Shown here in pieces: positions 1,739-42,325 of a stretch of DNA of 64,000 nt (position 1 is its first letter; every line of letters starts with the position of its first letter). The DNA comes from Reyranella soli (GTDB lineage: Bacteria; Pseudomonadota; Alphaproteobacteria; Reyranellales; Reyranellaceae): NCBI RefSeq assembly GCF_007992495.1, contig NZ_BKAJ01000037.1, positions 62,001-126,000 of the forward strand, read 5' to 3'. The notes below the pieces were generated by a model. The model was not told the origin of the DNA. It made no database searches and saw nothing but the letters and a program-made list of their open reading frames with translations. Both the position numbers and the translations under genes were made by a program.

Positions 1739-1775
1739 AAAAAAAGCCCGGCACGGGGTAAACCCTGCCGGGCGC
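1739..1775 (-). terminator. Rho-independent terminator, minus strand
   Basis: Read on the minus strand, an 8-bp GC-rich stem (GCCCGGCA with TGCCGGGC, 1746-1753 and 1766-1773) is followed directly by seven T residues. This is a classic intrinsic terminator for transcription running leftwards. It lies some 340 bases past the stop of the 2113-2415 gene and about 25 bases past the stop of a doubtful 61-codon frame at 1798-1983. Confidence 0.7.
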
Positions 1776-2112
1776 GTAGTTGAGGGAGGAGATACGCTCA
1801 GCGCGTCGCAAGATTTGCGCCAAGCGGCTGTGGACCAGACGGTGGGCTCTCGTGGATGGTCCCCGGCGGGGCGGATGCGGCCGGCCTACCTGGCTTGTCC
1901 TCCGTTGCCCTTGGTTCAAACGCCGGTTCAAACGTAGCGACGGCGCTATCCCAGCAACCGCGCAACCTGCGTGTGCTGGCCACGTCGACGGCCGGCTGGT
2001 GTGCGCATTCCTCTCGCCTGCAGTGCCTTGGCGAGCGATCGGAGACCTTGCACGCCCCCGCTGCTGTACCGCACGAACGCCCAGCTGGAGCCTGACGCTT
2101 GTGTTCGGTCGG

Positions 2113-2415
2113 CTACTGGCAGCTATCGACTTCCAGGCACGCGGCGCCCCCGGGACTGATTTTGCAGATCTGAAAATTACGCGCACCGACTTTGCTAATC
2201 TCGTCTCTTAGCTGACGAGCAAGAATAGGGCGGTGACCATGGAAGCCGAGCCCTCGGCTTTCTAGGTAGTCGTACAGCTGGTCGCGTCGACCCGCGTCTT
2301 TCTCCACCGCCGCACCGTAGCAGTAGGCTGCGCGCCGCTCCTCAGGCGAAAGGTCCACTTGAGCCCCAACCGGGAAAACCCACAGGGAGATTAAAAAAGC
2401 GATCCACCACCGCAT
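2113..2415 (-). CDS. Small secreted protein of unknown function
   Basis: Predicted 100-residue exported protein. The start at the codon for MRWWIAFLISLWVFPVGAQ is preferred because it gives a textbook Sec signal peptide (short basic start, hydrophobic core, AQ cleavage near residue 18-19). The open frame extends 47 codons further upstream without such a feature. The mature part has four cysteines (AAYCYG, FQICK, AACLEVDSC), suggesting periplasmic disulfides. No family recognised. It stands alone, with a divergent pair of small genes to its right. Confidence 0.55.
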   Translation of the reverse strand: MRWWIAFLISLWVFPVGAQVDLSPEERRAAYCYGAAVEKDAGRRDQLYDYLESRGLGFHGHRPILARQLRDEISKVGARNFQICKISPGGAACLEVDSCQ

Positions 2416-2670
2416 GCACAAAATCGATTCCACTGGCAGAAAAACCGCCTGGGTTCGCCCAGCCAGTGCTGACCAAGGAGTGGGCGGGCGGCCTGATGTG
2501 ACACTGACCAGGAGCACAAGCGCGCGAAGCCTGCTCCCTGAAGCAAAACCTGCCAATCAGGGAAATGGTTACAGGGCGGAGTCGATTGTTTCCCGTCAGT
2601 CCCGCCACGCCTGCGGCCGCCTGGCCAGCCCCCCCCGCAACCACTTGAGACCGGGCTGCGTAAATGGCTG

Positions 2671-2886
2671 ATGGTCGACCAGAACGACCGGTCCGCCCGT
2701 CTCCTGGTGCGGGCATTGTACTATGCGACAGACGGCGACAGGCGCTGGTGGCTACTGCCGACCGAATTGAATGACCTAACGAAACACGCCATCGCAGTAG
2801 CCGTCGATCGCGGCTGGATGCTCGATCGCGGCGACAGTGTTCGCCTAACAGAAGCCGGTCGGGATCTGGTCACGCACGGTGATTAA
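2671..2886 (+). CDS. Small winged-helix-like protein
   Basis: 71 residues. The C-terminal part (AVAVDRGWMLDRGDSVRLTEAGRDLV) has the pattern of a winged helix: a recognition-helix-like segment, a wing with alternating charges, and the LTEAGR turn common in such domains. It could be a minimal DNA-binding protein, but this is inferred from pattern only. It overlaps the next gene by 8 bases, so the two are probably translated together. No strong ribosome site is visible before the ATG. Confidence 0.5.
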   Translation: MVDQNDRSARLLVRALYYATDGDRRWWLLPTELNDLTKHAIAVAVDRGWMLDRGDSVRLTEAGRDLVTHGD

Positions 2887-39205: not shown

Positions 39206-39693
39206 TGTGCCGCCTCCACGCGCTTGGCAGTGGCGCGATGATGTGCGTGGCAGATGGCGACGGCCAGCGCGTCGGCGGCATCGGCCGTCGCATCGACGCC
39301 GGGCAGCAGGCGGCCGACCATCATGGCGATCTGGCGCTTGTCGGCATGGCCCGCGCCCGTGACCGACTTCTTCACCAGGTTGGTGGCGTACTCGAACACC
39401 GGCAGGCCGGCCCGCGCCGGCGCCAGCATGACGACGCCACGCGCCTGGCCGAGCTTCAGCGTCGATGCCGGGTTGACGTTCACGAAGGTCTCCTCGATGG
39501 CCGCCTCGACCGGCCGCTGGGCCTCGACCACGGCGGCAACGCCGTCGAACAGCGCGCACAATCGATCGGCCAGCGTGCCCTCGGCCGCCACTTTGACGAC
39601 GCCGTGCGCCACATGGCGCAGCTTGTTGCCGTCGACGTCGATCACGCCCCAGCCGGTCAATCGTAGACCGGGATCGAGGCCGATCAGTCTCAT
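39202..39693 (-). CDS. ruvC: Holliday junction resolvase RuvC
   Basis: 163 residues. RNase-H-like fold with Asp7 in [13 protein letters not shown], Glu in [11 protein letters not shown], and the acidic pair near the C-terminus ([19 protein letters not shown]). RuvC cuts Holliday junctions in step with RuvAB. First of the contiguous ruvCAB set, 11 bases downstream of yebC. Confidence 0.96.
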
Positions 39694-39704
39694 CGTCCCG
39701 GGCT

Positions 39705-40463
39705 TCAGGCCGCGAACTTCGCCAGAGCGTCGTCCGACACCTCGAAATTGGCGTAGACGTTCTGGACGTCGTCGTTGTCTTCCAGGGCCGCGATCATGTC
39801 GAGCAGGGTCTGCATCGTCTCGCCCTCGACCGGCGACGTGGTCTTGGGCCGCCACGACAGCTTGGCGACCGAGGGCTGGCCCAGCGACTTCTCGAGCGCC
39901 TCGCGCACGGAGTTGAAGTTCTCCTGAGCGCCGTAGATCTCGTGCACGCCCTCGGGGCCCTCGCCGCTCACCACGTCGTCTGCGCCGGCGTCGATCGCCT
40001 TCTCCAGCACCTCGTCGGCGCTGCCGACCGACAGCGGGAAACGGAACTCGCCGACGCGATCGAACATGAAGCTGACGCTGTTCGACTCGCCGAGATTGCC
40101 GCCGTGCTTGGCGAAGATCGAGCGGACCTCGCCGGCGGTGCGATTGCGGTTGTTGGTCAGCGCCTCGACGATCAGCGCCACGCCGCCCGGGCCGTAACCC
40201 TCGTAGCGGATTTCGTCGTAGTTGGCGTCGGCGTCGCTGCCCGAGCCGCGCTTGATGGCGCGATCGATGGTGTCGCGCGTCATGTTGGCTTCGCGCGCCG
40301 CGATCATCGCCGCACGCAGGCGCGGATTGGCATTGGGATCGGCCGCGCCGAGCCGCGCCGCGGTGGTGATCTCGCGGATGAGCTTGGTGAAGATCTTGGC
40401 CCGCTGGGCGTCCTGGCGCCCTTTGCGATGCATGATGTTCTTGAATTGCGAATGGCCCGCCAT
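39705..40463 (-). CDS. yebC: YebC/PmpR-family regulator (TACO1-like)
   Basis: 252 residues. Starts [20 protein letters not shown] (the usual text is MAGHSKWANIKHRK) and contains [16 protein letters not shown] and the acidic loop [14 protein letters not shown] at the end. The family acts on translation of proline-rich or stalling sequences and has been described as a transcription factor. yebC-ruvCAB order is widely conserved. It opens the long leftward series down to thiD; GGGGCG precedes the ATG. Confidence 0.95.
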
Positions 40464-40556
40464 CGCCCCAAAACCAGATTCAGTGAGTTGATGGGCCGCC
40501 TATACCACTTCTCGTGGGCTTTGGGAGTGCTAGACCGTGTCTGCAGGGCCCGGGAC

Positions 40557-40613
40557 AAAAAAAGGCGGGGGCCGAAGCCCCCGCTAAAAAACGTCGGAAC
40601 CTAGATTCCGACG
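40557..40613 (-). terminator. Two tandem intrinsic terminators, minus strand
   Basis: On the minus strand the first hairpin is CGTCGGAA-TCTAGG-TTCCGACG (40592-40613) followed by TTTTTTA. The second is GCGGGGGC-TTCG-GCCCCCGC (40565-40584) followed by C and seven T. Both fit the textbook form. They close transcription from the ymdB-like/fau side, or from an RNA gene in between, before the yebC operon. Confidence 0.85.
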
Positions 40614-40624
40614 CCCCCTCTAAC

Positions 40625-40729
40625 CTGAAGACAGTCGCCGAAGCCGGCGAAAAATCGTTTAACATCAAGACGATGCCGCTTTTTCCCCAAGCCGTCAACG
40701 AGCGTCTTCAGACTACCTCTAATAGGTAG
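40625..40729 (-). ncRNA. Candidate structured small RNA
   Basis: Upstream (minus strand) of the double terminator lies a compact set of pairings: an 8-bp closing stem CTGAAGAC/GTCTTCAG (40704-40711 with 40625-40632), an internal 6-bp hairpin TCGCCG-GCTT-CGGCGA (40635-40650), a 5-bp stem ATCGT/ACGAT (40654-40658 with 40670-40674) and a 6-bp hairpin CTACCT/AGGTAG at 40713-40729. No known RNA class is recognised. It could instead be a structured 3' UTR of the ymdB-like gene, whose stop lies 34 bases upstream. Confidence 0.45.
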
Positions 40730-40762
40730 GACGCCCAGTTCTGCAACACAAGATGCAGCAAT

Positions 40763-41569
40763 TCACAGGGCCTGAGGCAGTCGGCCGCCCAGCCGGATCG
40801 GCCGGACCGCGGTGGCGAGGCCTGTACGGTCGTCGCTTTCCACAACCGCCGCGCACAAAGTGCCCTCGCCTTCGGCCGGCGCCAGGCGTTCGCCCGGCAC
40901 CTTGCGTACGAAGCGCTGCACGGCCGACTCCTTCTTCATGCCGATCACCGAATCGTAGTCACCGCACATGCCGACGTCGGTCTGATAGGCCGTGCCGCCC
41001 GGCAGGATCCAGCTGTCGGCTGTAGGGACATGGCTGTGCGAGCCGAGCACGGCCGAGACGCGGCCGTCGCAATAGTGGCCGACCGACTGCTTCTCGCTGG
41101 TCGCCTCGCCATGCACGTCGACCAAAATGAAGTTGGCGGTGCTGCCCAGGGTGTACTTCGCGAGTTCGGCATCGACGCCGCGGAACGGATCGTCGAGCGC
41201 GTCCATGAACAGCCGGCACATGACGTTGATCACCACGATCTTCTGGCCACGCGCGGTCTGGAAGAGGTTGGCGCCCCAGCCGGGCGTGCCCGGCGGAAAG
41301 TTGATGGGCCTGAGCAGACGTTTGTCCTGGGCGATGTAGGGGATGATCTCGCGCTGGTCCCAGGCGTGGTTGCCGGTGGTGATGCAGTCGACGCCGGCCG
41401 CGTGCAGCTCGCCGCAGATTTTGGCGGTGATGCCAAAGCCCGCCGCCGCGTTCTCGCCGTTGACCGCCACGAAATCGAGACCGAGCTCACGCCGTAAACG
41501 TGGGACTTCCTTGATCACCACATCTCGGCCGGCCCGGCCGACGATGTCACCGCAGAACAGGACCTTCAT
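40763..41569 (-). CDS. YmdB-like metallophosphoesterase (TIGR00282 family)
   Basis: 268 residues. Metal ligands in VLFCGDIVGRAGRD, VNGENAAAGFGIT, TTGNHAWDQREI, DVHGEATSEK and GSHSHVPTAD follow the family order. The Bacillus YmdB acts as a cyclic-nucleotide phosphodiesterase in biofilm switching; the role in Alphaproteobacteria is unknown. The ATG at 41569 is two bases past the fau stop, so the genes are coupled. Followed by the structured RNA candidate and double terminator. Confidence 0.9.
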   Translation of the reverse strand: MKVLFCGDIVGRAGRDVVIKEVPRLRRELGLDFVAVNGENAAAGFGITAKICGELHAAGVDCITTGNHAWDQREIIPYIAQDKRLLRPINFPPGTPGWGANLFQTARGQKIVVINVMCRLFMDALDDPFRGVDAELAKYTLGSTANFILVDVHGEATSEKQSVGHYCDGRVSAVLGSHSHVPTADSWILPGGTAYQTDVGMCGDYDSVIGMKKESAVQRFVRKVPGERLAPAEGEGTLCAAVVESDDRTGLATAVRPIRLGGRLPQAL

Positions 41570-41571
41570 AG

Positions 41572-42147
41572 CTAGACAAAGGCGCAAGCGCGCTTGTCGG
41601 TCAACAACCAATCGAGGCGCTGGTCGTCGGGCCCGTGCGGAACGTCGTCAACGAGTTGGGCGTTGAAGCCCACCCCTACCGCCGTCACCGCCTTGCGGCC
41701 ACGCAGGCCAAGCAGCGTGCGATCGTAGAAGCCGCCGCCATAGCCCAATCGCCAGCCCTCCTCGTCGCAGGCGAGCATCGGCACGATCAGCGCGTCGGGC
41801 TCCAGCGTCTCGCGCTTGGGCGAGGGCTGCAGCGTGCCGAACACGCCCTGCTCCAGCGGATCGCCCGGTCGCCAAGCGCGGAACAGCAGCGGCTTGCCGC
41901 GGCCCTGCACGACGGGCAGCACCAGCTGGCACCCACCGTTGTGCAGCTCGATCATCAGCGGCCGGATGTCGATCTCGTCCTTGATTGGCCAGAAACCCGA
42001 CACGACCGTCGGCGTCTCGAACGGCTGCTCGCGCTCGAAGCTCGCCACCAGCCCGTCGGCGGCGACGCGGCGTTCGTCCTCGGAGAGGCCGCCGCGCCAG
42101 GCCAGCATGGCGGAGCGCAGCGTGCGCTTGTCGTGGATCAGGGACAT
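41572..42147 (-). CDS. 5-formyltetrahydrofolate cyclo-ligase
   Basis: 191 residues from the ATG at 42147. The ATP-binding basic start (IHDKRTLRSAML), the substrate loop SGFWPIKDEIDIRPL and the C-terminal VPMLACDEEGWRLGYGGGFYDRTL are the family signatures. The enzyme (Fau/YgfA) recycles 5-formyl-THF to methenyl-THF using ATP. zapA - 6S RNA - fau is the classic order in proteobacteria and is seen here. Confidence 0.93.
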   Translation of the reverse strand: MSLIHDKRTLRSAMLAWRGGLSEDERRVAADGLVASFEREQPFETPTVVSGFWPIKDEIDIRPLMIELHNGGCQLVLPVVQGRGKPLLFRAWRPGDPLEQGVFGTLQPSPKRETLEPDALIVPMLACDEEGWRLGYGGGFYDRTLLGLRGRKAVTAVGVGFNAQLVDDVPHGPDDQRLDWLLTDKRACAFV

Positions 42148-42181
42148 GTCTGGAAGGGCATAAGGTGGGGCGGCTCCACGA

Positions 42182-42325
42182 TGGGCCGTGGCTCGTAGAA
42201 CCTCCAAGGCCTGCGTAAGCAGGTGGGCACCGTGTAGCCAAGACCAGGGTCAAGGCCAGGAACAGTTCCCAGGAGTTCTTATTGGCCCCGGGGTTTTAAG
42301 CGAACCACGCACCGCGCAGAAATCC
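42182..42325 (-). ncRNA. ssrS: 6S RNA (regulator of RNA polymerase)
   Basis: Placed between zapA and fau, the canonical site. On the minus strand the closing stem CGTGGTTCG (42301-42309) pairs with CGAGCCACG (42187-42195, one G-U). Inside are the alphaproteobacterial 6S elements as I remember them: AACCCCGGGGCCAATAAG on the 5' side, CTGTTCCTGGCCTTGACCC at the apex, GCCAA/TTGGC pairing, and the small bubble hairpin CCTGC-TTAC-GCAGG on the 3' side. It mimics an open promoter and binds sigma70 holoenzyme. Exact ends uncertain. Confidence 0.8.

Follow-up and report, generated by a model that had tools for sequence, protein, structure and literature searches.

A predicted small RNA gene with tandem terminators between ymdB and yebC in the Reyranellaceae

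The ymdB-yebC interval and its features

The analysed window, a stretch of 64,000 nucleotides from the genome of Reyranella soli, carries on its minus strand the gene order zapA (PF05164), 6S RNA, ygfA (5-FTHF cyclo-ligase, PF01812), ymdB (PF13277), the RNA considered here, yebC (PF01709) and ruvC (PF02075), as assigned by Pfam and Rfam. The 6S RNA (42169-42325, minus strand), situated between zapA and the 5-FTHF cyclo-ligase gene, scored 51.1 bits against the Rfam cut-off of 46.4. A preliminary description, made from the letters of the DNA, had pointed to an undescribed structured RNA on the minus strand of the gap between a ymdB-like gene and yebC, and the Pfam matches of both neighbours agree with that placement. 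The features discussed below are as follows, all of them on the minus strand.

40748-40755, minus strand: upstream motif CATCTTGT (identity 0.88 for 40755-40746 in 54 loci, with 0.51 in the spacer and 0.61 in the flank)
40720-40725, minus strand: CTATTA element (identity 0.94 for 40724-40719 in 54 loci)
40557-40713, minus strand: predicted small RNA gene (conserved block; 3' end from the U-runs, 5' end deduced from CTATTA)
40624-40712, minus strand: predicted long hairpin body with the closing stem TCTGAAGACG/TGTCTTCAGG (MFE fold; body z -4.86; compensatory changes in a few pairs)
40693-40698, minus strand: TTGACG motif (72 of 72 distinct copies)
40650-40668, minus strand: motif TTGATGTTAAACGATTTTT (family-wide form TTG[AT][TA][GA]T[TA][AG]...G[AG]TTTTT; alignment of 48 sequences)
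40586-40624, minus strand: near-invariant 3' module, GTTAGAGGGGG followed by the terminator 1 hairpin and T6 (mean column identity 0.984)
40557-40584, minus strand: terminator 2, GCGGGGGC TTCG GCCCCCGC C and T7, an 8-bp GC hairpin (terminator scan; conservation)
40490-40519, minus strand: separate conserved block ahead of yebC, containing CCCACGAGAAGTGGTATAG (mean column identity 0.845 in 54 loci)

The RNA is predicted to be about 157 nt long if it ends at terminator 2 and about 128 nt long if it ends at terminator 1. Both neighbours lie on the strand of the RNA: its presumed start is 49 nt 3' of the ymdB stop codon, and yebC follows about 100 nt beyond the terminators. The source genome contains a single strong match to the RNA, at its own locus. 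The RNA is separated by 37 nt of 0.584 identity (54 loci) from the block at 40490-40519, which is probably the yebC promoter. Within this block, a small inverted repeat CCAC...GTGG, possibly an operator, stands beside the -10-like sequence GTATAG.

The two terminators of the preliminary description can be recognised as two hairpin-plus-U-run units read on the minus strand. The core of terminator 1, CGTCGGAAT-CTAG-GTTCCGACG (40613-40592, 9 bp), runs into T6 (40591-40586); in the MFE structure the stem reaches 15 pairs, since G-U and A-U pairs set AGGGGG opposite the U-run. A simple terminator scan of 39500-41800 returned terminator 2 alone, and this one site is within chance, the shuffle mean being 1.4. 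An intrinsic terminator with a U-run at the RNA 3' end, as expected of trans-encoded small RNAs of the Hfq type, is present at the sequence level.

For the 5' end, a promoter scan gave no standard promoter for the RNA, and the start was placed from the second of two upstream motifs, of which CATCTTGT is possibly a -35-like or activator element and CTATTA possibly a -10-like element. CTATTA was found in 62 of 72 distinct copies; the ten copies devoid of it comprise eight from two other genera, L087 (two Ns and a shortened upstream region) and L132 (contig edge), while L036 is cut before the first upstream motif. Among the 61 copies having both CTATTA and enough upstream sequence, ATCTTGT is exact in 53, the looser AT.T.GT is present in all 61, and the spacing of CATCTTGT and CTATTA is identical in all 61. 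CTATTA stands 21 nt after CTTGTG; this distance is too long for a standard sigma-70 promoter and counts against the supposed promoter, as do the eight copies of the two genera that lack CTATTA.

Conservation and distribution

A blastn search with the RNA gave a match in 73 of the 76 genomes of the order and in all 51 good genomes (completeness of 90% or more, contamination of 5% or less), the three misses being G026 and G033 (84% and 75% complete, of the same genus) and G037 (81% complete, of another family). In genera g27 and g29 the blastn match was short and lay mainly over the 3' part. In the named genome collection, 67 stretches contain the exact 19-mer of the module, and 66 of them have both terminators plus ymdB and/or yebC in the locus; the named carriers include Reyranella massiliensis 521, R. 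aquatilis, Reyranella sp. CPCC 100927, Enhydrobacter aerosaccus ATCC 27094 and Vineibacter terrae, and many carriers are loosely named metagenome bins. Reyranella is placed within the Reyranellaceae by the NCBI taxonomy.

Column identities were computed for 54 Reyranella-type loci out of 67 candidates, 13 having been dropped for a gene missing in the locus or for another spacing. The mean column identity of the body was 0.83, against 0.51-0.61 in the flanking spacers. At the fourfold sites of yebC the identity was 0.638 over 66 sites (48 of the 54 loci) and 0.634 over 58 sites in another set of 54 loci, 48 of them shared. The 3' part is 98-100% identical in the 54 loci, compared with 64% at the fourfold yebC sites, with 0.984 for the 3' module (40625-40588) and 0.996 for terminator 2 (40587-40557).

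All 51 loci obtained through blastn (L001-L051) contain the module pattern, whatever their genus. For the wider comparison the terminator 1 motif served to select 72 distinct copies, those with less than 170 nt around the motif being dropped. GTTAGAGGGGGCG is exact in 71 of these 72 copies, a set picked partly by the same motif, and the terminator 2 pattern was found in 72 of the 72 copies so chosen by terminator 1; in two other genera the loop and the closing pair of terminator 2 differ and its hairpin is kept. Under loose patterns allowed anywhere in the copy, all 72 copies have the TTG part of TTGATGTTAAACGATTTTT and 69 of them its G[AG]TTTTT part. The distance from TTGACG to GTTAGAG is 72, 73, 74, 75, 76 and 77 nt in 2, 2, 11, 44, 10 and 3 of the 72 copies, respectively. 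A small protein gene was ruled out on this basis, since the distance between fixed motifs varies through all three reading frames.

Beyond the family, a covariance model was run against 385 genomes of the class, and strong hits (112.6-147.9 bits) came only from the five family members in this sample; the best hits in 11 other genomes (16.8-24.8 bits) were read as chance or as the terminator only, in a search with strict filters and nine scored candidates per genome that may miss distant homologues. Of 398 Pseudomonadota genomes, two, both of them Reyranella, contain the module pattern when up to three mismatches are allowed. The exact module pattern was absent from viral contigs, and plasmids and phages gave no match to the RNA at E up to 0.01; a mobile or phage origin was rejected on these grounds.

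Fold, covariation and gene neighbourhood

The unusual density of nested helices noted in the preliminary description was confirmed: the minus strand folds with an MFE of -85.2, whereas the shuffles average -56.8 (sd 4.4), which corresponds to a z of -6.5, and none of the 200 shuffles was as good. The plus strand scores equally (z -6.5), so the strand is not decided by energy alone and is given by the U-runs. Part of the signal of the whole stretch comes from the terminators, although the 90-nt body without them still yields a z of -4.86 (100 shuffles). The closing stem TCTGAAGACG/TGTCTTCAGG described earlier is present, with 10 pairs in the MFE structure (40712-40703 with 40633-40624) rather than the 8 first proposed, and the internal stems reported inside it correspond to helices of the minus-strand MFE that reach to 40634.

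Covariation was assessed in 35 copies of the genus (alignment A1) on a consensus structure of the body plus terminators, the counted structure being taken from a body-only consensus of the same sequences, so that it leans towards itself, and the shuffles ignoring relatedness. On this consensus 92.8% of the cells are paired, and changes on both sides were seen in 5 of 54 pairs (23 cells), compared with 1.5 pairs and 5.4 cells in the shuffles; with a second structure, derived from a single sequence, the counts were 6 of 59 pairs and 24 cells. However, two-sided changes also appeared in controls with slid partners (1-4 pairs and 1-12 cells, with 37-48% of cells paired), and body pairs are broken in up to 13 of the 35 copies. 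RNAalifold on the full 35-sequence alignment paired the body differently, and in that structure a single pair shows changes on both sides. The terminator 1 stem shows one compensatory change from G-C to A-U with all cells paired, and terminator 2 is invariant in the 35 copies. The covariation asked for in the preliminary description thus appears above the shuffles and lends modest support to the predicted structure.

The 5' hairpin, CTACCT-ATTAG-AGGTAG (40729-40713, minus strand), does exist in the window, as had been described, but relatives do not preserve it: of the 35 sequences in alignment A1, 12 fail to form pair 7-17 and 14 fail to form pair 8-16. On the aligned copies the hairpin is not supported, and it overlaps the conserved CTATTA element.

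The long hairpin itself varies within and beyond the genus. Body z values within Reyranella extend from -6.7 (L012) to -0.36 (L035), with -0.9 in L025, and the body is unstructured in 8 of 8 copies of two other genera (z -0.41 to +1.62). These genera, devoid of the body fold, still keep TTGACG, AAAAA, a TTGTTATTGAACGGTTTTT-like sequence and the 3' module, and the linear motifs and the 3' end are therefore kept more widely than the long hairpin. Judged from the aligned copies, the body fold is not a family-wide trait, and the conservation is mainly at the level of sequence, above all in the 3' module. The strong folding of a single genome's sequence is misleading in detail here, as the motifs and the terminator persist across genera and the body fold does not.

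The gene neighbourhood bears on whether the RNA belongs to one of the adjoining genes. The RNA may be the 3' UTR of ymdB, with the tandem terminators at its end and possibly with a small RNA cut out of it, as would fit the short distance from the ymdB stop codon to the presumed start on this strand, and the usual arrangement, in which about 141-165 nt separate the end of the ymdB match from GTTAGAG (223-412 nt in two other genera). Yet in L033 two ORFs (171 and 147 aa, with no Pfam match; 1747-2736, minus strand) and in L014 about 100 extra nt are inserted between ymdB and the RNA, and in both loci the CATCTTGT/CTATTA pair is intact and directly ahead of the RNA; the motif pair is, moreover, far more conserved than the surrounding DNA. 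A 3' UTR of ymdB is thus considered quite unlikely.

On the other side, a cis-acting leader or attenuator of yebC, whose terminator would be opened under some condition to let transcription enter yebC, is suggested by the nearness of yebC after the terminators in the window, on the same strand. Against it, in all seven loci tested from two other genera the next Pfam-matched gene after the RNA is convergent, namely a zinc-type dehydrogenase gene in L037, L039, L040, L043 and L044 and a DJ-1/PfpI gene in L042 and L045; this count takes in the Pfam-tested loci without L038, and overlapping co-directional ORFs there were read as antisense. In six of these seven loci both yebC and the RNA can be seen, and there the yebC start is about 0.76-1.9 kb away; yebC also has its own conserved promoter-like block beyond the terminators. 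A riboswitch or attenuator of yebC was rejected because of the convergent genes, and its probability is put very low.

Taken together, the convergent genes and the arrangements of L033 and L014 exclude the yebC leader and make a plain ymdB 3' UTR unlikely, while a stand-alone gene is favoured by the conservation, by the tandem terminators and by the motif pair, which accompanies the RNA through changes of the upstream gene. The preliminary description had left the choice between a small RNA gene and a structured 3' UTR; its undescribed structured RNA survives, and of the two forms the gene is preferred.

Known RNAs, proposed function and a copy in Nomurabacteria

With Rfam 15, searched at the gathering cut-offs and at permissive thresholds, no family reached its cut-off for the RNA, which in this database is indeed undescribed. 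The best sub-threshold match in a 371-base search was the Burkholderia small RNA anti-hemB (RF02837; 26.0 bits, E 0.0004, cut-off 49.5), and ncS025 (RF02869), also a Burkholderia small RNA, gave 24.1 bits (E 0.03, cut-off 46). Both share with the Reyranellaceae RNA successive hairpins followed by a U-run, but the matches contain non-standard pairs and were read as terminator resemblance. Near-perfect conservation of both arms of a terminator, as seen here, exceeds the usual needs of Hfq binding and counts against the Hfq-assisted reading preferred below.

Among the matches listed, the literature on small or noncoding RNAs of Reyranella or Reyranellaceae and on ymdB-yebC small RNAs held no relevant paper. 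For the Rhizobiales, 39 family models of trans-encoded small RNAs, mostly restricted to a genus or family, have been described (Reinkensmeier et al. 2011, PMC3927594). One of them, RFMSmelB053, has three adjacent hairpins, of which the central one is conserved in sequence and the last is a bona fide terminator (PMC3927594), an arrangement that is much like terminators 1 and 2 of the Reyranellaceae RNA; these models, however, come from other bacteria and were compared with the present RNA through Rfam only. Should the RNA be expressed, it would be a family-wide RNA gene absent from Rfam and from the papers among the matches listed.

The conserved copies suggest that the Reyranellaceae RNA is very probably a real regulatory RNA, and the likely reading is a stand-alone, Hfq-assisted, trans-acting small RNA gene of the Reyranellaceae, on the minus strand and with two intrinsic terminators. 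This is favoured by the terminator with a U-run, the AU-rich motifs left unpaired in some genera and the presence in the source genome of an Hfq gene (PF17209, 113.3 bits). Transcription would begin near 40713 from a putative promoter just after ymdB, and the two terminators would give RNAs of about 128 and 157 nt, these ends being predicted. The RNA would act in trans by short base pairing, presumably helped by Hfq, through its linear motifs TTGACG, the AU-rich TTGATGTTAAACGRTTTTT stretch and GUUAGAGGGGG, and the terminator with its U-run would make a stable, Hfq-binding 3' end. AGGGGG, paired with the terminator 1 U-run in the MFE structure, may not be free in this model.

Perfect 11-nt complements of GUUAGAGGGGG were absent outside the RNA gene in seven genomes of the genus, and those of GAUGUUAAACG were absent outside it in the four of the seven whose RNA has the exact motif; over the seven genomes the reversed-pattern controls gave seven and three matches for the GUUAGAGGGGG and GAUGUUAAACG searches, respectively. 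As chance alone would give such an 11-mer no more than about once per genome, this search excludes only long perfect targets, and shorter or imperfect target pairing may be compatible with it. The lack of a long target match would also suit a structural RNA whose function depends on its fold or on a bound protein, like 6S RNA or a sponge, and not on base pairing; the long hairpin, some pairs of which show compensatory changes in the genus, and the conservation of both arms of the 3' module as sequence point the same way. The RNA shares with 6S RNA (RF00013) a long hairpin and the cluster zapA-6S-ygfA-ymdB-RNA-yebC, but 6S RNA occupies a separate locus of the window (42325-42169) and the RNA gave no 6S match at E up to 5. 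Since the body fold is, in addition, weak in L035 and L025 and absent in two genera, a purely structural role is held to be unlikely, if somewhat less so than the 3' UTR, and the trans-acting small RNA is kept as the preferred reading.

One copy of the module lies in another phylum. In a Candidatus Nomurabacteria MAG (genome G456, locus L126), 42 nt are identical to the module of L036 and L134, and 49 nt match the covariance model at 58.6 bits. The copy is at 216 kb of a 425-kb contig, between a 623-aa ORF with no Pfam match, which we take to resemble PriA, and a peptide deformylase gene (PF01327), in surroundings of up to 68% GC with a z of -5.5. The 39 relatives of G456 gave no match to a 345-nt query, and the module pattern with up to three mismatches was found in 1 of 286 genomes of its phylum, namely G456 itself. 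Horizontal transfer of the module is the simplest reading, and the copy may also be an assembly error.

A near-invariant terminator, together with this lone copy, raises the question of what would hold a terminator constant down to single letters. One conceivable answer, to which little probability is given, is that the 3' module (GUUAGAGGGGG plus terminator 1) would be the functional core, a portable cassette recognised as sequence by a partner; the 5' body would then be free to change from a long hairpin in Reyranella to a single strand in the Vineibacter group and one further genus, and the module would have moved between phyla to be grafted on an unrelated Nomurabacteria stretch ahead of the peptide deformylase gene. 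Rfam gave nothing above its cut-offs on the Nomurabacteria stretch. The stretch itself (3905-4312 of L147; 1-310 of L126) is a GC-rich, strongly folded intergenic region, at whose end stand the 42-nt module copy and a second hairpin that differs.
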